Shown one piece after another: positions 11,540 to 24,069 of a stretch of 26,070 bases of DNA. The notes under the pieces are model-generated. The model was given only the letters and a program-made list of their open reading frames with translations. It was not told the origin of the DNA and did not search any database. The stretch comes from a virus. Within the stretch, counting starts at the first letter, position 1; each line of letters begins with the position of its first letter. A program made the position numbers and the translations under genes. The DNA lies in the IMG/VR virus record IMGVR_UViG_3300045738_000286, positions 1 to 26,070 of that record. One strand, written 5' to 3'.

Positions 11540-12748
11540 TTAGGCAGCCTTAGTGAATCTAGCCATTCCTTCTTCGTTCCTAAGCTCTACAGTGTATTCA
11601 CCGAGAACCATACCCTTAGACGAGTCACCAGTCTTAGCAACAGGCTGGAACTGGAAAGAACGTCCTGACAGAGGAACCACTTTAATGCGATTCTTAGCAA
11701 GAATTAGACCTTCATCAGCAGGCATCCAACGACTAAGCACAACAGCCAAAGAACCATATGTGCTTTCGTACGTGGTAACCACATCACGATAGGCGTTTTC
11801 TTCATTGACAACACGAATCCTGGAACTGTTAAGGCGATCAATTGCCTCCTTAACTTCAGCACCACAAACGATTACATCCAGATCTGTGCCACCATTATCC
11901 CAGGCTGTCTTAATAACAGTATTAAGATTCACTCCGGACGAGTTATCCATAACAACGCTTGTTGGCTTATTCGTATCAATCATACTACGTATGCCCTGCA
12001 TAGTTCTAGAAGCAGTTGCAGCACCTGCACTTCCTGCTACAGCATTACCAGAAGCACCAGTAGCGGCACCACGACCACGTATTACCATCTTTTCTAGATC
12101 ACGTAGAGCTTCACGAGTACGCATCTGAACCTGATAATCAAGCTCGTCAACTATACCGCCAAGGTTACGTACAGAACGCATCGTTCCAGACACGATAACA
12201 TCCTTCTTGAAAATCTGGCACGTATTAGTCTTACGCACACGCGTCTTACTGATATCTTCACGAACATCCGCACCTTCTGTAGTGGACTCGCCAAGTACAG
12301 TTAGTGTTGACGATGCGGCAATAGCAGCAGCTGTTGATCCACCAACAGCACGTTCGATAGTAACAGCAGTGTCACTCGCACGAGCGACAACTTGAATTAC
12401 TTCACCAGTAGCTGTTTCAAGCAATGTACCAAGCATTAAGCTATTAGCACCACTTAGTACGACGAGACCCGTAGCTGACCCATCCAGAGCCGCAGCACTA
12501 ACTGTTAATTCGTTTATATTAAGACTATCTTCAAGCCATTCATGAAGAATACTTTGAGCTGGGAACTCTGCATCTCCAATGAGTGTCAATAACGGAGTTT
12601 CATAAGGAGAAATCATTGAAACAATAGGACTTACATCCTCTGCAATGGTATCATCCGTAGTACCGATCTTACCGGTTATTCCTTGATCGTAGACAGCACG
12701 TCCTGTGAACGTGCTACCACCGAGTTGCGTGTTTAGTACACCTGCCAT
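11540..12748 (-). CDS. Major capsid protein, SU10/DUF5309-like
   Basis: This 402-residue protein forms the icosahedral shell. It resembles the SU10-type (DUF5309) major capsid family: near residues 40-80 it has VSPIVSMISPYETPLLTLIG followed by a HEWLEDSLN segment, then a beta-rich insertion (about 80-155), EDISKTRVRKTNTCQIFKKD, and a helix with a VQMRTREALRDLEKMVIRG pattern. The C-terminal half has LDVIVCGAEVKEAIDRLNSS and strands ending RNEEGMARFTKAA. HK97-fold phage capsids share such a layout. It directly follows the scaffold gene; the start ATG has GTGAGG a few bases upstream, and a hairpin lies in the intergenic gap. No separate prohead protease gene is visible between portal and capsid. 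Confidence 0.85.
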   Translation of the reverse strand: MAGVLNTQLGGSTFTGRAVYDQGITGKIGTTDDTIAEDVSPIVSMISPYETPLLTLIGDAEFPAQSILHEWLEDSLNINELTVSAAALDGSATGLVVLSGANSLMLGTLLETATGEVIQVVARASDTAVTIERAVGGSTAAAIAASSTLTVLGESTTEGADVREDISKTRVRKTNTCQIFKKDVIVSGTMRSVRNLGGIVDELDYQVQMRTREALRDLEKMVIRGRGAATGASGNAVAGSAGAATASRTMQGIRSMIDTNKPTSVVMDNSSGVNLNTVIKTAWDNGGTDLDVIVCGAEVKEAIDRLNSSRIRVVNEENAYRDVVTTYESTYGSLAVVLSRWMPADEGLILAKNRIKVVPLSGRSFQFQPVAKTGDSSKGMVLGEYTVELRNEEGMARFTKAA

Positions 12749-12776
12749 TTTTCTTACCTCACTTAGTAAATATTTT

Positions 12777-12814
12777 TAGTAGTTTAGATAGTGACAGCGT
12801 AGCATAAACTACTA
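12777..12814. repeat. 10-bp inverted repeat between scaffold and capsid genes
   Basis: TAGTAGTTTA (12777-12786) and TAAACTACTA (12805-12814) are perfect reverse complements around an 18-base loop. On the minus strand the 5' arm begins with the scaffold stop codon (TAG, 12814-12812) and the 3' arm ends about 28 bases before the capsid start. There is no T tract on the minus strand, so it is better read as an mRNA structure (processing, 3'-end stability or partial attenuation) than as an intrinsic terminator. Confidence 0.5.
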
Positions 12815-13801
12815 ATTACCACTACCGTCTTTTGATTTTCGTAAATCTGTTAATTTTCTATTAGCAGACATGTATGCTGAAACAGCGCGTGTTTCACCTT
12901 TACTCATCTGTGCTCGATCATAAAGTTCTTTTACTAAAGATTCTTGCTGATTTATATCAGCATCAACAGATTCAGAAGAGGTAGTTTGTTCTTGTGCACC
13001 AGAACCTCCTTGAGAGGAAGCACTTCTTACAAGAACTGGCGGAATATATTTATTTACCGCATCTTCTAGCGGTATATATTCATGTGTCTCGGTAGCTCCT
13101 TTAGGAACAAACATCCAACCAACACCGTCTACATATTTAGACTCAGGAGTAAAATATCTAATTCCTGCCGTCAAATCCGCACAATTAGAACGTGTAAGCG
13201 CGTCGGTCAAAAGATTATCTCTTTGCGTGGTACGCATAGTATCTTCTGCTTTTAAACGAATAGATCGTTCTTCCTGAAGTGTATCTAACGCTTGTTGTAA
13301 TTGTTTTTGATTTTCACTAAGTTGATCTTTAACGTCTGACATTTGATTTTCATGGCCAACGCGTACGCCTTGTACAGTACGCCAAAGTTCACCATTTACA
13401 CCTTTTGGAGGAGTCATCATTTTCACATATTCATCGTAACCTTCTGGTGTAGATGAATAGCGATCTCCATCTGGAGAAATAAGTTCACCTTCTGGTGATA
13501 GCTCAACACCGGCATCTTTAGCAGCATCAGATAGCATGTTTTTTAAAGAAGACATATCTTCTTGCATAGATCCTAGTTGCGTTTTTAAGTCTGTATTTTC
13601 AGATTGTAAAGATCTTCTGTGACTTGCGAGAATTCTATTAAGATCTTCTTGCGTAAAATTTGGATCTGGCTGAGTAGTTTGAGCTACTGAGCTAGCATCT
13701 GTTGTGGTTTCCTGTTGCGTATCTGCGTCAGACACACCGGTCCTAGCATTCTCTATATCCTGTGCAACACTTCTATCTTCATTTGTTTGAACGTCAGCCA
13801 T
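12812..13801 (-). CDS. Capsid scaffolding protein
   Basis: This 329-residue acidic, Gln/Ser-rich protein lies between portal and major capsid genes, the scaffold position. The N-terminal 45 residues are disordered-looking. Residues about 48-90 and 150-200 are strongly coiled-coil (LNRILASHRRSLQSENTDLK; DQLSENQKQLQQALDTLQEE). The middle part (SPDGDRYSSTPEGYDEYVKM) and the C-terminal Ser/Gln-rich and basic segment ending RKLTDLRKSKDGSGN fit scaffolds that contact coat protein through a charged C-terminus. The role is inferred from these features and position; family membership was not searched. Confidence 0.75.
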   Translation of the reverse strand: MADVQTNEDRSVAQDIENARTGVSDADTQQETTTDASSVAQTTQPDPNFTQEDLNRILASHRRSLQSENTDLKTQLGSMQEDMSSLKNMLSDAAKDAGVELSPEGELISPDGDRYSSTPEGYDEYVKMMTPPKGVNGELWRTVQGVRVGHENQMSDVKDQLSENQKQLQQALDTLQEERSIRLKAEDTMRTTQRDNLLTDALTRSNCADLTAGIRYFTPESKYVDGVGWMFVPKGATETHEYIPLEDAVNKYIPPVLVRSASSQGGSGAQEQTTSSESVDADINQQESLVKELYDRAQMSKGETRAVSAYMSANRKLTDLRKSKDGSGN

Positions 13802-16186: not shown

Positions 16187-17723
16187 GAATATTTGAACTC
16201 TTTAAGCGACCTTCAAGTGTATAAAAGCTATACAACATGTATCTTAATGCATCAACAGCATGATCATCTCTTTTAATTATTACGTCCTTATTTGGAGTAC
16301 CATCTTTTTCAGTTTTATAACAGTACAAGGCGCTTAATTCTTTGATTAGTCGCTCACACCAGTTAAATATTCTAAGTTTAGGATTACCTGCTTGTCCACG
16401 GCGTTGAAACATTGCTTTAAGCTTATTTATTCCTGCGTAAACGTCGTTATTTGCCGGGCGTGAAGGTACACCATATTTCTTCATTTCTAGTATAGCTTGC
16501 CTACCACTAGGATCCGAATAGATAACTTCTTTTGAACTGAATAAAGGACTCCTCTTTATTACCTCCGCATGATCTTCTAAACTTCTATCAACAGTAGTAA
16601 AGTACTCATAAAAAATATACCACGTATCGTCCTGTGGGTCCAAGGCTCCTTTAATATATGCAAAATTACTACCATAATCTATAGCAGAAGCTATTTGCCA
16701 ATGATCAGGTATGTGAAAGGGTTTAACCATCCAAGGGTCTTCTTCCTTAAAGTAATCTCCATAAACTAAAATAGCACCAGATGGTCTAAGATTTCTCCAT
16801 TGAGTATCCCAAGTATCCTTGTCAAGCAACCGAACCTTTTTTATAAAATCTTCAACCTTATACCAGCCACTACATTTATGTGCGACACCGCCACACAACA
16901 TAATTTCTTTACCCTCTTTATCAGTCATACTATACGCAGGACAATCACCATATATTGGATCATTAAAACACAACCTATCACAGTGTTCTAATACTTCAAA
17001 AATACACCAAGAATAAACTTTTATTTCTTTCTCCTCTGCCATATCTAGAAGTTTCTGCATGGTACCTTTCTGCCATTTACGAGTAGAGGTTAAAGTATCT
17101 TGTGCTTTATAACCTTTACGCTCAATAGACATCTGCAAGCCTTCTTGTAAGACTTCCCAAGCCATTAGCTCAATTTCATCTACGCGTGTTTTATTTGGAT
17201 GTGGACTATTGAATCCATGATATGTTCCCGCAATAACTCGACAAAGACTACCATTAGCAAATCTGGTTTCTGATCTTATACTACTAACCACTTCTTGTGT
17301 GAAAAGTGGCTCATTAAATAGCATATCTGTTATGTACTTATATGCCCTATCTGCTTGCTCTGTAATTGCACCGGCAGATGCGATCTCTACTCCAGGTTTA
17401 AAAAAAGCATCCATGACATTAAGAATTGCTACGTTACTAGTTTTACCACCACCACGATTAGCGAAACCAATACTAGTAGCAACTTTTTCAAAAAACTGTT
17501 CGGACACAAATTCGAGAGGTGCACAGTGTTCTGTACATATATTTTCAGTAGCTAAAATATATGGAGTATATTCCTCAACAAAAAACTTAAGTTCTGCCTC
17601 ATTTTCAATGCCTTTCTCCCTAAAATGATGGTACATCATTACACGAAGAGATTCCCTATCAGGTTTCTCTATTACAGGACCCTTGTAATAATCAGGTGCT
17701 TTTATTGTTAGATCTTCACTCAT
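16173..17723 (-). CDS. terL: Terminase large subunit (TerL)
   Basis: This is the packaging motor: an N-terminal ATPase and C-terminal RNase H-like nuclease, 516 residues, which is normal. Walker A is ANRGGGKTS (residues 88-96); Walker B is RVDEIE (180-185) with catalytic Glu183; the coupling motif is LTSTRKW (211-217). The nuclease acidic residues are likely Asp349 (AIDYGSN), Asp404 (YSDPSG) and Asp488/Asp491 (RDDHAVDAL). Between the domains is a cysteine cluster at residues 240, 248, 252, 261, 277 and 284, suggesting a zinc-binding insertion of a kind seen in some phage TerLs. The ATG at 17723 overlaps the upstream stop as ATGA. No recognisable small terminase subunit lies upstream in the window. 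Confidence 0.95.
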
Positions 17724-18529
17724 GCAGCTACAGGGTATTGTTTACCTTCATAAGAAATATGCTTACAAAACATGCCAGTATCAACAATAAAGGGATATTT
17801 CTTTTTATGATGTTTTCTCCAACCCGTGTGCCACAAAACTTTTTCTTTTATAACACGATCACACCACCACAAATCTTCGGTTCCTCCATGGACTCCCCAA
17901 TCCATGCTCTGTGGATCTAACCACAATTCACGTGGTGTAGTAAAAACTTCTCTAACAATTTCACCTGTACGGGTTTGTAACTCTCTGGAGTTTTTATACA
18001 TATATTCCAAAATAGATCTATGTATCAATGTACAGCCCATAGGAATACCATCTACTTCAACAAGATCTCCTGGCTTCCAATCCAAATAAGAGCTGGCTCC
18101 ACGACCTCTAAAGAGTAGAGGATACGAGGGCTCTGCTTTAACATAATATAAACCAGAGATGATAGGGTGTTCTTTCTTTCTCATATACTCTAAAAGTCTT
18201 ATATATAGATCCTGTGTCGGCAATACATCATGATCAAGAAAAAATAACCACTCACACTTACTGTTAATAAAATCTTTTACTATTAAATTACGTGCTTCTG
18301 CAACATGAAAACCTATAGGAGCAGACCAACCGATAGCCGCTGCACGTGTTTTCTGCGCAAAAACTACAGGTATAACAAGTGACATTACCGCAGTATGCCA
18401 TTCATACCTAACAACCCCAGTACTCGGTATACCAAGCATCAATTCAAAAGTATTTTGTACAGTATTAGGTCGTATTCCAATATGAACAGTAGGAACTTCG
18501 GTTAATTCTATATCTTCTTTCTTAGCCAT
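17720..18529 (-). CDS. GT-A type glycosyltransferase-like protein
   Basis: This 269-residue protein has the layout of a GT-A nucleotide-sugar transferase: a Rossmann-like start with [20 protein letters not shown] leading to the DHD metal-binding motif (residues 99-101), a donor/acceptor segment ([17 protein letters not shown]), [11 protein letters not shown] (162-172), and the likely catalytic-base motif [10 protein letters not shown] (216-225), with a late His (257, CKHIS) that could bind metal. It acts in the cytoplasm; the substrate cannot be told from sequence. The gene overlaps the methyltransferase stop (TAATG) and the TerL start (ATGA), so it is in the same transcript. Phage members of this group may modify virion proteins, host surface glycans or DNA; none is shown here. 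Confidence 0.8.
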
Positions 18530-19053
18530 TATTTCTCCCCCATATATTTCTTTAAAATTTTAGGTGTAATATCTTTTGATCCTTTTTTAATTGCTCTCAA
18601 GCGTACTTCTATATTTGCAAAAGAATCCCACACACAGCTAAGTATTTCAAATGGTTTAGTTTTATAAATGTGCCACAAAGGATTACGGTAATCAAAATAG
18701 TAGAAAGAGCTCTCTACAAATCCAGGTCTCATATGTGTTGGATCCTGATAGGCATAAATATTAGATGAGTGTGGCACACTTATCATGAAGGATCCATCAG
18801 GTATAAGCGTGCGCCACGCTTCATCCATGACGTCAAGAAATTTTCTAGGATCTATATGTTCAAGTATATGAGTAGCCAAGAGTATTGCTACAGAATTTTC
18901 GTCTATAGGCCAAGGAGTATCTTCGATATCATGAACAATATCGACAGAATCAAAATACCTTTTATCCAAGCCTAAAAATCCAAGTTGTTTATTAGAACCA
19001 CAACCTAGATCTAAATTTATAGTTTTTAAAAGTTCTTGGCGTATGGGTTTCAT
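18529..19053 (-). CDS. Class I SAM-dependent methyltransferase
   Basis: This 174-residue protein is a compact class I methyltransferase. Motif I is DLGCGS (residues 15-20); an acidic residue follows at the end of strand 2 (LGLDK). Strand 4 is AILLATHILEHID (56-68), typical of the Methyltransf_11 group, and post-motif III is LIPDGSFMISVPH (83-95). There is no target-recognition domain or DNA-methylase catalytic motif (no DPPY or PC), so a DNA modification role is unlikely; small-molecule, sugar or protein methylation fits better. AGGAGG lies 5 bases before the ATG at 19053. The neighbouring glycosyltransferase suggests the pair builds or decorates a glycan, which is inference. Confidence 0.8.
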   Translation of the reverse strand: MKPIRQELLKTINLDLGCGSNKQLGFLGLDKRYFDSVDIVHDIEDTPWPIDENSVAILLATHILEHIDPRKFLDVMDEAWRTLIPDGSFMISVPHSSNIYAYQDPTHMRPGFVESSFYYFDYRNPLWHIYKTKPFEILSCVWDSFANIEVRLRAIKKGSKDITPKILKKYMGEK

Positions 19054-19612: not shown

Positions 19613-20140
19613 CTATTGTGAAAATTTTAGTTCATACGTAGCACGAACTTCTTGATCTTGTGACCATGCAGATTCTGCGAAAGTAGTTCCTGCTAACATT
19701 TTATTAGCATTAATGTCTGCGTTAGCTGTATTACTAGTATTATTAAAAATACCAATACCATTAATAGTTGAGTCTTGGGAAATCCAATTAGATGCGGCTA
19801 ACCATGTCGCCTGAAAACGTAAAATAGCACCATTTGAAGTAGCTACAAACTCTGAGGAACAGTTAGCGTTAGTCACAAGTATTCTAGCATTTGACACTGC
19901 AGGTGACGAATCAAAATCTAATTGCGTAGACGTAAAATTTGTATTAGTAAAATAGCCTAAACCTAGACCTTCTGCTGTAATAGGCGTATTACCTGACGCA
20001 CCACCAACAGCCATATATTGAAAACCGGTCTCGGTTATTTTATTCTGTTTCCAGCCAGAATCGCCTACTACAGTACCTGTTGTAGAATCAACGATCTGTA
20101 CTTTAGTAAATCCACGTAATTTAAGTTGTGTATCACTCAT
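19613..20140 (-). CDS. Phage structural protein, fibre/tail-associated type
   Basis: This is a 175-residue beta-rich protein of unknown exact role. The start (QLKLRGFTKVQIVDSTTGTV, then DSGWKQNKITETGFQYMAVG) resembles a recurrent phage structural pattern in which an N-terminal strand pair is followed by 'N.ITxxGL'. The remainder is Thr/Asn/Ser-rich strands, with INGIGIFNNTSN and RATYELKFSQ at the end. It lies with other fibre or decoration genes, behind an AGGTGA Shine-Dalgarno. It is probably a virion surface protein, by context. I see no enzymatic motif. Confidence 0.6.
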   Translation of the reverse strand: MSDTQLKLRGFTKVQIVDSTTGTVVGDSGWKQNKITETGFQYMAVGGASGNTPITAEGLGLGYFTNTNFTSTQLDFDSSPAVSNARILVTNANCSSEFVATSNGAILRFQATWLAASNWISQDSTINGIGIFNNTSNTANADINANKMLAGTTFAESAWSQDQEVRATYELKFSQ

Positions 20141-20147
20141 AATTCAC

Positions 20148-20486
20148 CTATATGCTATCTAGTATTTCTACTTCTATGAACCCATTTGACGGGAATGTTG
20201 ATATCTTACCATCAGAAAACGTAACTGTAAATTCTGCTCTATACGTTCCTGTGGTATCAGTGTCTGCTGCTACCCACACGTATTTAACTACACCATTACT
20301 TGGATCATCAATAGTTGCGGTGGCACTATCTACCTTTGTAGTGTTTCCTCGTTTCATACTAAAAGTTGCAGACGCTCCTGTCAAATTAAGGTAGGTGGCG
20401 TCTGATTCCTTAGTAACTTGTATAGCTATTTCAGGTGCTGTATCTGATTTTTTTATATTAAATGTTTTTTTATAAAACTGCTTCAC
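20148..20486 (-). CDS. BppU-like Ig-fold structural protein
   Basis: This 112-residue protein resembles the N-terminal domain of phage baseplate upper proteins (BppU family) and related Ig-like structural modules. The signature is clear: TAPEIAIQVTKESDATYLNL, TGASATFSMKRGN, then VKYVWVAADTDTTGTYRAEF (the 'V.Y.w...DT...G.Y.AEF' motif) and TVTFSDGKISTFPSNGFIEV. It starts at GTG 20486 with GGAG about 9 bases upstream, right after the repeat fibre gene. As the whole protein is only this domain, it may be an adaptor that anchors the neighbouring fibre to the virion; that is inference. Confidence 0.7.
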   Translation of the reverse strand: MKQFYKKTFNIKKSDTAPEIAIQVTKESDATYLNLTGASATFSMKRGNTTKVDSATATIDDPSNGVVKYVWVAADTDTTGTYRAEFTVTFSDGKISTFPSNGFIEVEILDSI

Positions 20487-20500
20487 TTATAGTACTCCAA

Positions 20501-23329
20501 TTAGTATTTTAATTTTATAATTAGATCATTATACTCTACTTCAATACGAGTGTCATTATGTACTACTTTTATAGCAGAATTGTTATATTCTACTTGTACA
20601 ATGTCTAAAAATTTAAATACGTCTATACCACCAAGCATATAAGTTGGTCCAACTATATTTTCAGCGGAAGATATAGCAGAGACAGATAAAGTTATCTTTA
20701 TGCTTGAAACAGAAGATACGGATTCTTCTGATGCTATAGACGTGGTGATTCTAACAGATTCTTGAATAGATGAAACAGACGATACCGATTCTTCTGAAGA
20801 TATAGAATTAGGTAAGATATCAAGTATTTCTGTAAGTAAATCTGAACTAAAAACTTCTTCGGAAGCTATAGTACTTGGATATACCGCACTAGTTATACTA
20901 GAAACAGAAGATACGGATTCTTCTGAATCTATAGAATCAGGCCTAATATTTACATGTAAAGCGTCAGAACTTATAGTCTCTTCTGACGGAAGTGCATTAA
21001 CAAAAATATTTAACTGTATACTAGAAACAGAAGATACAGATTCTTCTGAATCTATAGAGGTACTAGTTAAATTAGATTGTATTTCATCAGAACTAAATAC
21101 TTCGGCAGAAGATATTGCGGTTACTGAAATAAATGATTTAATACTAGAAACGGAGGATAAAGTTTCTTCCGAATCTATAGCATTGGGAGATATAAGCTGC
21201 GAAATAACAATGTCGCCTATATCTGAGATATAGGAAGCAGTAGGTATTGCGCTTGTTGATATAGAAAATTTAGTGTCAGAAATAGAAGATACTGCTTCAG
21301 AAGAAGGTACCGAATCTGGCAGTATATTAGCTTGTAAATCTGAAACAGAGGATACGGATTCTTCTGAAGATATATTTGTCGTAGATGCACTTGCTTGTAT
21401 TACTGGTATGGTAAAACCAGGATCTATCAAAGCGTGAGTATTTGGTGCAATACTAATACGTAAGACAACAGAAGATATATTTTCGGCAGAGGGTACTAGA
21501 CTCGTCAGTATATTAGCTTGTAAATCTGAAACAGAAGATACTGATTCTTCTGATGCTAGAGCTGTTGGACTTATGCTAGGCTGTATTTCATCTGAACTAA
21601 ATACTTCTGCGGAAGGTATAGCAGACGTTGCAATGTGACTTTTAAAGGTTGTAACATCTGATATGTCTTCAGAAGACGTTACTGTGTTTGTCGAAACATT
21701 TAATTGTATGCTAGTAACAGATGATACTGATTCGTCAGATGAAACAGTTGTAGTAGTTAAACGCGCGTGTAATTCAACGTTACTAAAGAATTCAGAAGAT
21801 ACAATCGGAAAATTAGATGCATCAACTCTAGACTTTGTAACAACTTCCGGTATAGTTTCAGCGGAAGCTATAGAGCTTGGTGTGATACTAAGCTGTATTT
21901 CGTCAGAACTAAATACTTCTGATGAGGCAATACTAGTAGTTGAAAGGCTTAGTTGTACACTAGTAACGTCCTCTATAAGTTCTTGGGACTCAATAGCCGT
22001 TGTTGCTACATGAGAGTGTAAACTAGAAACAGCGGATAAAGTTTCTTCCGAAGCTACAGGTGTAGGAGAAACTCTCTGTAGAGACGAAAGTGTTACAATA
22101 GCAGATACGTATTCTTGTGTATCAATAGATGTTGTTGAAACACTAGATTGAACACTAACTACAGTTGAAATAGATTCTTCTGTATCTATAGAAGTAGTCG
22201 TAAGTTGCGTTAATACGCTAGAAACAGTAGATACGGCTTCTTCCGTAGGTACTAGAGTTGTAGTTAAACTAGACTGTATCTCACTAGAACTAAATACTTC
22301 TAATGAAGTTAATGACTCTGGGACAACACTTTGCTGAACACTTACTACAGAAGAGACATTCTCATCTGTTGGTACTGCCGCAGTAGAGACAGTTTCATGT
22401 ATACCCGAAACGGTAGGTATCGTTTCTTGGGTAGCAATTGACTCTGTGCTTACCTCTGACGATAAAACTAAACCAACAAGTCCTGAATCGCCTCCAGGTA
22501 TTAATTCTTCTGAAGATATAGCTGTAGGACTTAAACTGGTCTGTATTTCGTCAGAACTAAATACTTCTGCGGAAGGCAGAGAAGCGGGTACTATAGAAAA
22601 TTTAGTATCTACTACAGAAGAAACAGATTCCTCTGTTGAAATAGAAAGTGCAGAAACGCGTGATTGTATACTAGAAACAGTAGATACAGATTCTTGTGTA
22701 TCTATAGATGTTGGAATTATATCTAGTATTTCAGTGTATACTGTGCCAAATTCTTCATCAGAAGGTATAGAACTAGGCGTGACACTTGCGTGTACACTAG
22801 AAACAGTAGATACCGATTCTAGTGTTGTGATTGTGTTAGTTTCTACACTGTTTTGTACTGTACTGGAGCCAAAATCTTCTACTGTGGGTACTGAAGTTGT
22901 AGTAACCTGTGCCGTTACTGTAGGAGAACCAAAATCTTCTGCTGTAGGTACTAAAGTTGGTGTTAAAGTAATGCGTGGTAGTACAGAAACGTCTGAAATA
23001 CTTTCGGCAGTTGGAATAGCCGTTGTCGAGATATTAGATTGTATTTCATCAGAACTAAATACTTCGGCAGTATCAATGGTTGTGGTTGAGACACTGCTCT
23101 GTAACGTGGCAGCTTCTGATACGGCTGCTTCGGTATCAATGGTTGCGGGTGATACGCTATTCCTTACAGAAGATACCGTGGAAACAGATTCTTCTGTCCC
23201 TATAGAAGCGGATACAGGCTCATTAGCCTGTACAACGGTAGTGGTAGCTATTGGAGTGGTAGGCTCGGGTATAGCGTCGGGAAGTACCTGTTGGTGACTT
23301 ACACCGCTAAATAATAATAGTAAAGACAT
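20501..23329 (-). CDS. 942-residue Ser/Thr/Glu-rich repeat protein (putative fibre)
   Basis: This is a long, acidic, nearly Cys- and Trp-free protein. It opens with a hydrophobic MSLLLLFSGV, then residues about 35-891 are some 41 degenerate repeats of 20-21 residues of the type [S/N]-[V/I/L]-x-[T/P]-x-x-I-x-[S/T]-x-E-x-[V/F]-S-S-V-x-x-I-x. Two flavours alternate irregularly: TEESVSSVSSIQ-like and SAEVFSSDEIQ-like, and some carry EDFG. The final 51 residues differ and contain a 9-residue mini-repeat. Regular hydrophobic spacing suggests a beta-solenoid or stacked-strand fibre. Repeats with 'SAEAFG'-like cores are known in phage fibre and structural proteins. The short hydrophobic start is not a convincing signal peptide. 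Ser/Thr content makes it a possible substrate for the nearby glycosyltransferase (inference). Role: tail or head fibre, probable. Confidence 0.75.
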   Translation of the reverse strand: MSLLLLFSGVSHQQVLPDAIPEPTTPIATTTVVQANEPVSASIGTEESVSTVSSVRNSVSPATIDTEAAVSEAATLQSSVSTTTIDTAEVFSSDEIQSNISTTAIPTAESISDVSVLPRITLTPTLVPTAEDFGSPTVTAQVTTTSVPTVEDFGSSTVQNSVETNTITTLESVSTVSSVHASVTPSSIPSDEEFGTVYTEILDIIPTSIDTQESVSTVSSIQSRVSALSISTEESVSSVVDTKFSIVPASLPSAEVFSSDEIQTSLSPTAISSEELIPGGDSGLVGLVLSSEVSTESIATQETIPTVSGIHETVSTAAVPTDENVSSVVSVQQSVVPESLTSLEVFSSSEIQSSLTTTLVPTEEAVSTVSSVLTQLTTTSIDTEESISTVVSVQSSVSTTSIDTQEYVSAIVTLSSLQRVSPTPVASEETLSAVSSLHSHVATTAIESQELIEDVTSVQLSLSTTSIASSEVFSSDEIQLSITPSSIASAETIPEVVTKSRVDASNFPIVSSEFFSNVELHARLTTTTVSSDESVSSVTSIQLNVSTNTVTSSEDISDVTTFKSHIATSAIPSAEVFSSDEIQPSISPTALASEESVSSVSDLQANILTSLVPSAENISSVVLRISIAPNTHALIDPGFTIPVIQASASTTNISSEESVSSVSDLQANILPDSVPSSEAVSSISDTKFSISTSAIPTASYISDIGDIVISQLISPNAIDSEETLSSVSSIKSFISVTAISSAEVFSSDEIQSNLTSTSIDSEESVSSVSSIQLNIFVNALPSEETISSDALHVNIRPDSIDSEESVSSVSSITSAVYPSTIASEEVFSSDLLTEILDILPNSISSEESVSSVSSIQESVRITTSIASEESVSSVSSIKITLSVSAISSAENIVGPTYMLGGIDVFKFLDIVQVEYNNSAIKVVHNDTRIEVEYNDLIIKLKY
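20504..20599 (-). repeat. C-terminal 9-residue mini-repeat in the fibre
   Basis: The last 32 residues fall into a nonamer pattern: VQVEYNNSA, IKVVHNDTR, IEVEYNDLI and the truncated IKLKY. Alternating I/V-x-V-x-[Y/H]-N-[D/N] looks like successive beta-hairpin rungs with Asn-Asp turns, so this could be a small solenoid cap or trimerisation tip at the end of the fibre. This is a structural guess from periodicity. Confidence 0.55.
20657..23227 (-). repeat. About 41 in-frame repeats of 20-21 codons
   Basis: The unit boundary is set by the recurring [V/I/L]-x-[T/P]-x-x-[I/V]-x-[S/T]-x-E core. At DNA level most units have diverged, but the block encoding EVFSSDEIQ stays nearly identical at several sites (for example around 21079, 21583, 21895, 22540 and 23040), with spacings that are multiples of 3. 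Conserved protein with variable synonymous positions points to old duplication under selection, with some recent copying of the EVFSSDEIQ type. Confidence 0.75.
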
Positions 23330-23530
23330 CTACACCCTCATGTCTTTACAATAAAAATAAGGAGGTCCGCGCACAGAACGGACCTCCTTATAACACAGAG
23401 AACTATAGGAAAAATTTACAGGTCTTAAAGTATACTCTTTAGAAGATTTGCATACGTGTACAACAGAAGAAACCTTGAAAGTTTCTTCGCTGTTTATAGT
23501 TTCTGGACGTAAGCACAATACTTTAGCCAC
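23330..23530 (-). CDS. Short ORF with a single fibre repeat, reading through a hairpin
   Basis: This is a 66-codon ORF, GTG start at 23530, with no good Shine-Dalgarno. Residues 9-26 (PETINSEETFKVSSVVHV) match one unit of the downstream 942-residue repeat protein. After that the sequence loses the pattern, and the last 20 codons cross a 13-bp hairpin; it stops with TAG directly against the ATG of the repeat gene. It may be a leader peptide, a degenerate 5' fragment of an older and longer repeat gene, or an untranslated leader that only looks coding. The shared repeat argues that at least the first half derives from coding sequence. Confidence 0.4.
   Translation of the reverse strand: MAKVLCLRPETINSEETFKVSSVVHVCKSSKEYTLRPVNFSYSSLCYKEVRSVRGPPYFYCKDMRV
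23351..23391 (-). terminator. Intrinsic terminator-like hairpin before the repeat gene
   Basis: On the minus strand ATAAGGAGGTCCG (23391-23379) pairs perfectly with CGGACCTCCTTAT (23369-23357): 13 bp with a 9-base loop, followed by TTTT, A, TT. It lies 21 to 27 bases before the repeat gene's ATG. Termination here would end transcripts from the upstream gene, yet little room is left for a new promoter. It could therefore act as a partial terminator or attenuator. The 5' arm also holds a GGAGG, which the stem would hide. Confidence 0.65.
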
Positions 23531-23538
23531 TAAACATC

Positions 23539-24069
23539 TTATAGTTTAAAAATATTGTCGCCGTGAATACCAGAACCTGCCCACACGATATCAATAGGCT
23601 GTCCATTAGTTGTACCTGCGGTAAACCCACTGCCAGTATCAATATGGCAGATAAGTGGCCAGGCTGCAGAAGTATTACTGCCCGCCACGGTATAAGACTT
23701 GTATATAATAATACCATCTACCGTCCACCCAGAGCCAATATTATCTACCTCTGTGACATTATAGTTACTTATTCCTGCAACACCATCTGTAGTGGCAAAA
23801 ATAGACGGAGTTCCTGATCCGTTATCTAGAATATCTTGACTTACTGTTGATCCTAAGGATGGGGAAGTTCCATCAGTCAAGATATTAGCGGTAGTGTCTA
23901 TATCTGTCCAGAAGTCATCTGTGGATGTATCTGCAGGTGCATAATTTGCTACGTCTTTGAACGCCACTTTAATAGTGCCTGTAACACCTCCGGCAGGATC
24001 TGAATTATCCCAGCCTAAATCGCCTTTAAGAAAGCTTTCTCTAGCTGAATTATATATGAAAGATGCCAT
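23539..24069 (-). CDS. Phage structural protein (small beta-rich virion protein)
   Basis: This 176-residue protein matches a recurrent phage pattern: SFIYNSARESFLKGDLGW ('xFxYNxxREgFLxGdidW'), a long variable Asp/Thr-rich middle (YAPADTSTDDFWTDIDTTAN), then VDGIIIYKSYTVAGSNTSAA, WPLICHIDTGSGF ('LIAYIDTxTG') and the end PIDIVWAGSGIHGDNIFKL ('itixWxxxGIFKL'). Proteins of this kind occur in structural modules and are usually listed as hypothetical or decoration-like. The start ATG at 24069 follows a GGAG about 11 bases upstream. A good promoter candidate lies about 50 bases before it. The exact virion location is unknown. Confidence 0.7.
   Translation of the reverse strand: MASFIYNSARESFLKGDLGWDNSDPAGGVTGTIKVAFKDVANYAPADTSTDDFWTDIDTTANILTDGTSPSLGSTVSQDILDNGSGTPSIFATTDGVAGISNYNVTEVDNIGSGWTVDGIIIYKSYTVAGSNTSAAWPLICHIDTGSGFTAGTTNGQPIDIVWAGSGIHGDNIFKL

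Follow-up and report, generated by a model that had tools for sequence, protein, structure and literature searches.

In the triple beta-spiral of adenovirus, short repeated units of about 15 residues, each comprising two strands and a turn, form a long stalk with a rise of about 1.3 nm per unit. Beta-solenoids rise by 4.8 Å per coil, which gives about 0.5 nm per unit. Phages carry another repeat family, referred to here as SAEAFG (PHROG 13352, "minor tail protein"), which has units of the form I-x-S-x-E-x-F-G and whose members are annotated as minor tail proteins in Mycobacterium phage records. Our literature search found nothing on this family, no Pfam model matched the SAEAFG repeats tested, and no solved structure was related by sequence to these proteins or to the protein described here. 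Arrays of this type are widespread: a search with a synthetic SAEAFG consensus found them in at least 196 viral contigs, from which 80 loci were kept, and in bacterial genomes (or their prophages), where 12 loci were recovered. In the following sections, we describe a long serine-rich array and compare it with these systems.

Genomic context of the repeat gene

The analyzed DNA (hereafter, the window) is a virus record of 26,070 bases, apparently a fragment, with its main genes on the minus strand. The repeat ORF (20501–23329, minus strand) starts with ATG and encodes 942 residues. Family matches and synteny place it among tail and structural genes. Transcription runs from a fibre-like gene through a PHROG 644 gene (23539–24069, minus strand) and the repeat gene to a BppU_N-type gene (baseplate upper protein N-terminal domain; 20148–20486, minus strand), which lies directly downstream of the repeat gene and has homologues in loci L058 and L098. 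These are followed by a gene for a 175-aa protein (19613–20140, minus strand), a Sel1 gene, a methyltransferase and a glycosyltransferase-like gene (together 17720–19053, minus strand), and then by the large terminase, the portal, a scaffold-like gene, the major capsid gene and, further on, a gene of 2392 aa that runs off the window and is probably the tape measure. The glycosyltransferase match is below the Pfam cut-off. The terminase, used as a search seed, retrieved no relative.

A strong intrinsic terminator-like hairpin of 14 pairs with a T tail (23357–23391, minus strand) lies just before the repeat gene. The 66-nt stretch that contains it folds at −25.2 kcal/mol (z −6.7), and the hairpin ends about 28 bases before the ATG, a distance that leaves no room for an ordinary promoter. 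The hairpin may limit the amount of fibre made. The same region holds a 66-aa ORF (23330–23530, minus strand), which is in frame with the repeat gene, ends directly before it and contains a single unit of the same kind (PETINSEETFKVSSVVHV); it is either a remnant or a one-unit gene.

A divergent member of the SAEAFG family

The repetition is pronounced at the protein level. The autocorrelation of its residues is highest at lags of 21, 41, and 62 (0.20–0.22 versus about 0.10), and a self-trained profile with dynamic programming placed 39 units over aa 40–882 (20684–23212, minus strand), or 90% of the protein, with a score of 944, whereas 20 shuffled proteins averaged 3 and did not exceed 8. Units are spaced by 20 or 21 residues, apart from two longer gaps of 28 and 41. 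Two degraded terminal units recognized by eye (E37 in VVQANEPVS and E889 in AISSAENIV) bring the total to 41, in agreement with the preliminary description, which had counted about 41 units of 20–21 residues over more than 90% of the protein. Tandem Repeats Finder reported nothing at the repeat gene, which indicates that the repetition is a property of the protein. Within the units, position 0 is Glu in 36 of 39, position +2 is hydrophobic in all 39, position −4 is Ile, Val, or Leu in 37, and position −2 is Ser or Thr in 38. Gly at +3, a typical but not a defining trait of the family, is retained in only three. The Ser content is 25% and the Gly content 1.3%, and Ser and Thr together make up 37% of the array.

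On sequence grounds, the window protein is a divergent member of the SAEAFG family. An HMM built from 48 rows of relatives, with no row from the window, gives it a score of 190.6 bits (E = 3e-58), while the best of 700 shuffled or block-shuffled versions reaches 1.0 bit. The reciprocal HMM, made from the window alone, matches every SAEAFG ORF. PHROG 13352 matches parts of the protein (E = 3e-8 for aa 715–942, and 1e-5) as well as its relatives, and the array shows the family core of tandem 20–23-residue units with I-x-[ST]-x-E-x-hydrophobic. The repeat is therefore real and belongs to a common phage family, as the first reading of the sequence had recognized when it noted a core similar to that of SAEAFG repeats. 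Since compositional bias hides the link, whole-protein scans of PHROGs, Pfam, and a phage collection found no relative at the usual thresholds, and the family becomes visible only with protein fragments or a dedicated profile. Searches with seeds of the window's own type were less productive: a V-type DNA pattern hit 14 contigs, none with an array, a mixed seed found one ordinary SAEAFG tail protein (L141), and direct seeds from the window protein found no relative among viral contigs, so that none of the three kinds of window-type seed turned up a further array like this one. The protein has drifted far, with Gly nearly gone, while the I/S/E/hydrophobic register persists, which points to these residues as important for the fold.

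Two unit lineages and a probably copied core block

The array contains two unit types, as originally described, which differ in the +2 residue, spacing, and codon usage. Units with Phe at +2 (10 typical ones and the odd unit 23) are mostly spaced by 20 residues, and the 28 units with Val, Ile, or Leu mostly by 21. Ser at +3 is encoded by AGT in 7/7 units of 19–20 residues and by TCN in 17/17 of the 21-residue units (p = 3e-6, one-sided Fisher test), a split that marks the types as separate lineages. The three units that retain Gly at +3 encode it by GGT or GGC, and AGT is one transition away from GGT; judged by these codons, the Ser of the F-type units is probably derived from the family Gly, and the TCN lineage is separate. 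The irregular interspersion noted earlier is confirmed, as the order of types is near random and, if anything, slightly over-dispersed (21 runs versus 16.8 expected, p = 0.07). On the favoured reading, the two types are lineages that spread as units were copied and recombined with one another, rather than functional modules in alternation.

A similar history probably explains the most conserved part of the array, the EVFSSDEIQ block. EVFSS occurs in seven copies, of which five agree exactly over nine residues. The block is found in units 3 (23039–23065), 11 (22541–22567), 21 (21893–21919), 26 (21581–21607), and 33 (21077–21103), and as EVFSSSEIQ in unit 15 (22274–22300), all on the minus strand; the longest exact DNA repeat, of 38 bp, is shared by units 3 and 33. 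The preliminary description had held that the block is better conserved than the rest, also in DNA, and codon counts agree: Glu is GAA in 7/7 copies, Phe TTT in 7/7, Ser AGT in 7/7, and Ile ATA in 6/6. This agreement between synonymous codons exceeds expectation (expected pairwise identity 0.27 for AGT and 0.48 for ATA) and stops at the block edges, with no excess in the seven preceding residues. Protein-level selection alone predicts no such sharing, which therefore indicates recent copying or conversion between units. A further proposal makes the block a functional site, for docking, metal binding, or a receptor, that recurs along the fibre, a reading that the seven copies and their five exact matches would favour. 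We consider it very improbable. The shared synonymous codons inside the block and their absence from the flanks are what recent copying predicts, EVFSSDEIQ occupies the position of the family core E-x-F-G-x-x-x-V, its spacing along the array is irregular, and searches of viral contigs with EVFSS[DS]EI and other window-derived seeds found the block in no other virus. The conservation is thus real but by itself no evidence of a binding site.

Domain architecture of the relatives

The relatives place SAEAFG arrays between domains of recognizable function. A lectin-like Laminin_G_3 domain lies N-terminal to the array in L006, L018, L020, L043, and L074, and a Phage_attach/head closure domain lies C-terminal to it in L018 and L043, so that in these two proteins the array is placed between the two domains. 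In L056 the array is followed by a minor tail domain (PHROG 1885), and in L141 by tail-fibre repeats (PHROG 892); the L141 array is also preceded by a gene that appears tape-measure-like by eye and by a PHROG 644 gene. PHROG 644 genes are found near the array on the same strand at 22 of the 80 loci, upstream in 18, and their product may be an assembly partner of SAEAFG proteins. Since the arrays link lectin-like domains with domains for head closure, minor tail, or tail fibre, they are best read as virion stalks. In terms of domain order, the array of the relatives is a connector, in keeping with a tail or neck stalk that presents a domain to the host.

In the window protein itself, no lectin or anchoring domain is recognizable. 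Its ends are short, and the tip could be provided by a separate protein or by the end of the array. The N-terminal lead (aa 1–27; 23249–23329, minus strand) begins with MSLLLLFSGVSHQQV, which by eye can be compared with MLLLLLSTPAAQ of L072 and with MSWFLFFVPQQL of the syntenic protein in L098. An N-terminal secretion signal was considered and dropped, as the hydrophobic run, judged by eye, spans only about five residues. The C-terminal cap (aa 908–942; 20504–20608, minus strand) follows a 9-residue pattern (VxVEYNNxx/IKVVHNDxx/IEVEYNDxx). Similar 9–10-residue patterns with N/D-rich turns (EYNNSAIKVVHNDTRIEVEYND) also end the repeat ORFs of L006 and L020. The 9-residue pattern occurs in 3 of 63 SAEAFG ORFs compared with 3 of 1303 control ORFs, a suggestive link with too few cases to build on.

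A seemingly exchangeable gene slot in related phages

A related phage (L095/L098, a 101.7-kb record), which resembles the window in its terminase (53–61%) and capsid (45%), keeps the BppU_N gene, the 175-aa gene beside the slot, the methyltransferase, and the glycosyltransferase-like gene, and carries a different protein next to its BppU_N homologue. This slot (16952–18040) encodes 362 aa of 22-residue repeats (PLxIxxxDTxTxxDxVxKLxxN) with 13% Ser and Thr. No SAEAFG match was found anywhere in the L098 record, while control records matched. The whole slot protein scores 12.7 bits against SAEAFG, with all shuffled and permuted controls at or below 9.7, and its repeat core alone scores 6.3 bits, a value beaten by 3 of 200 permuted repeats, which is too little to call these repeats homologous to SAEAFG units. 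A second relative, L100, shares these modification genes, and close to them it encodes a further protein of 22-residue repeats, again a different one (11729–13519); the genes are thus kept whatever repeat accompanies them. The repeats of the two relatives are VYDEILSITEDVTPVITELYVS-like in L100 and PLLIAVSDSPVFQDAVVRVLIN-like in L098; the family match is marginal for the former and absent for the latter. Repeat arrays thus seem to be exchangeable parts. A bolder proposal is that the slot swaps whole arrays of unrelated or barely related 20–22-residue repeats, all of which form a trimeric shaft of unsolved fold. We regard this as a tentative idea, with the odds against it; if true, the serine type would be one end of a large sequence space whose members all fold into the same stalk.

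Predicted fold and alternative models

Single-chain AlphaFold predictions were made on alignments of in-phase units, for one stretch of the window protein and one of L064. The window stretch gave short strands every ~21 residues (pLDDT 57, pTM 0.36), with the C-terminal cap, a beta meander, as the most confident part of the model. The regular L064 stretch, modelled with the cleaner alignment of the family, came out as an extended chain without secondary structure (pLDDT 63), which is compatible with a triple beta-spiral without proving it. Foldseek found no fold match at E ≤ 0.001 in the two libraries searched, and among solved viral shafts there was neither a sequence nor a fold match to the window protein.

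The preliminary description had proposed a long solenoid. As a single chain, each 20–21-residue unit would then form one coil of a beta-solenoid, giving a rod of about 20 nm, and the regular units with their two strand-like segments, together with the periodic strands of the first model, are in line with such a fold. The low confidence of that model, the extended chain obtained from the cleaner alignment, and the missing library match make it unlikely. An obligate multimer would be expected to give a lone extended chain, but so would a disordered protein. The disordered alternative is a mucin-like linker whose Ser and Thr residues would be glycosylated by the product of the glycosyltransferase-like gene of the phage. 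It would agree with the 37% Ser and Thr of the array and with the two genes, glycosyltransferase-like and methyltransferase, that lie a few genes downstream. We judge it even less likely than the solenoid, because disorder is disfavoured by the strictly kept hydrophobic register: full disorder without periodic strands, named beforehand as an outcome that would count against the fibre reading, does not, as far as the sequence shows, fit an array with hydrophobic +2 residues in 39/39 units and Ile, Val, or Leu at −4 in 37/39. In addition, the glycosyltransferase match falls under the Pfam cut-off, and L098 keeps both modification genes beside a slot protein low in Ser and Thr, which argues against these genes serving to modify a fibre rich in Ser and Thr. 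Sugar attachment, raised in the preliminary description as one possible role of the EVFSSDEIQ block, was for this reason dropped as the main purpose of the protein.

Taken together, these results favour a structural tail-fibre or appendage protein, and the window protein is probably one in which the array of ~41 units forms a long stalk from a virion-attached to a host-facing end. Most likely, the array is a spacer that extends in the direction of the host cell, and not a series of specialized binding sites. In such a stalk, which would be located in the virion, each unit would contribute two short beta segments, I-x-S-x-E-x-F/V and then V/I-x-x-V/I. Since a single chain is predicted without a stable fold, the chains would associate, most likely as trimers by analogy with other viral fibre shafts. 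The surface rich in Ser/Thr and Glu could keep a very long fibre soluble. For 41 units, the predicted length is about 50 nm as a triple beta-spiral or about 20 nm as a solenoid.

Comparison with known systems

The slot protein of L098 is similar to the window protein in its position by BppU_N, its hydrophobic N-terminal lead, and its strand-like C-terminus. Its 22-residue units also begin with P-L-x-I-x-x-x-[DE], a likeness to the window units, but the repeat sequence itself is different. Adenovirus-type trimeric shafts share with the predicted window stalk the principle of short repeated two-strand units that make a long stalk, but their unit has about 15 residues compared with 20–21 here.

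The closest resemblance is to the SAEAFG proteins (PHROG 13352 and 8501), which share the register P-x-x-I-x-[ST]-x-E-x-[F/V/I/L], tandem units of 20–23 residues, and the recurrent PHROG 644 neighbour. They also mix F and V/I/L flavours in one array (L059), with an aliphatic +2 residue in 84 of the 627 units of relatives. The window protein differs from them in several respects. Gly occupies +3 in 617/627 units of the relatives (98%) compared with 3/39 here, and the Gly content is 8–17% in the fetched relatives compared with 1.3%. Units of 21 residues make up 14/627 in the relatives but more than half in the window protein, and Ser reaches 4–17% in the fetched relatives compared with 25%. None of the 80 viral SAEAFG loci fetched has a longer array; the others reach ~30 units. 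The contrast with the relatives may be overstated, as these were fetched with a Gly-containing SAEAFG seed that favours arrays with Gly. What is new here is thus a variant, in which Gly is nearly lost, Ser rises to 25%, the 21-residue unit is almost confined to this protein, and the array exceeds all others seen in length; the window protein is unusual in length and composition, but ordinary in kind.
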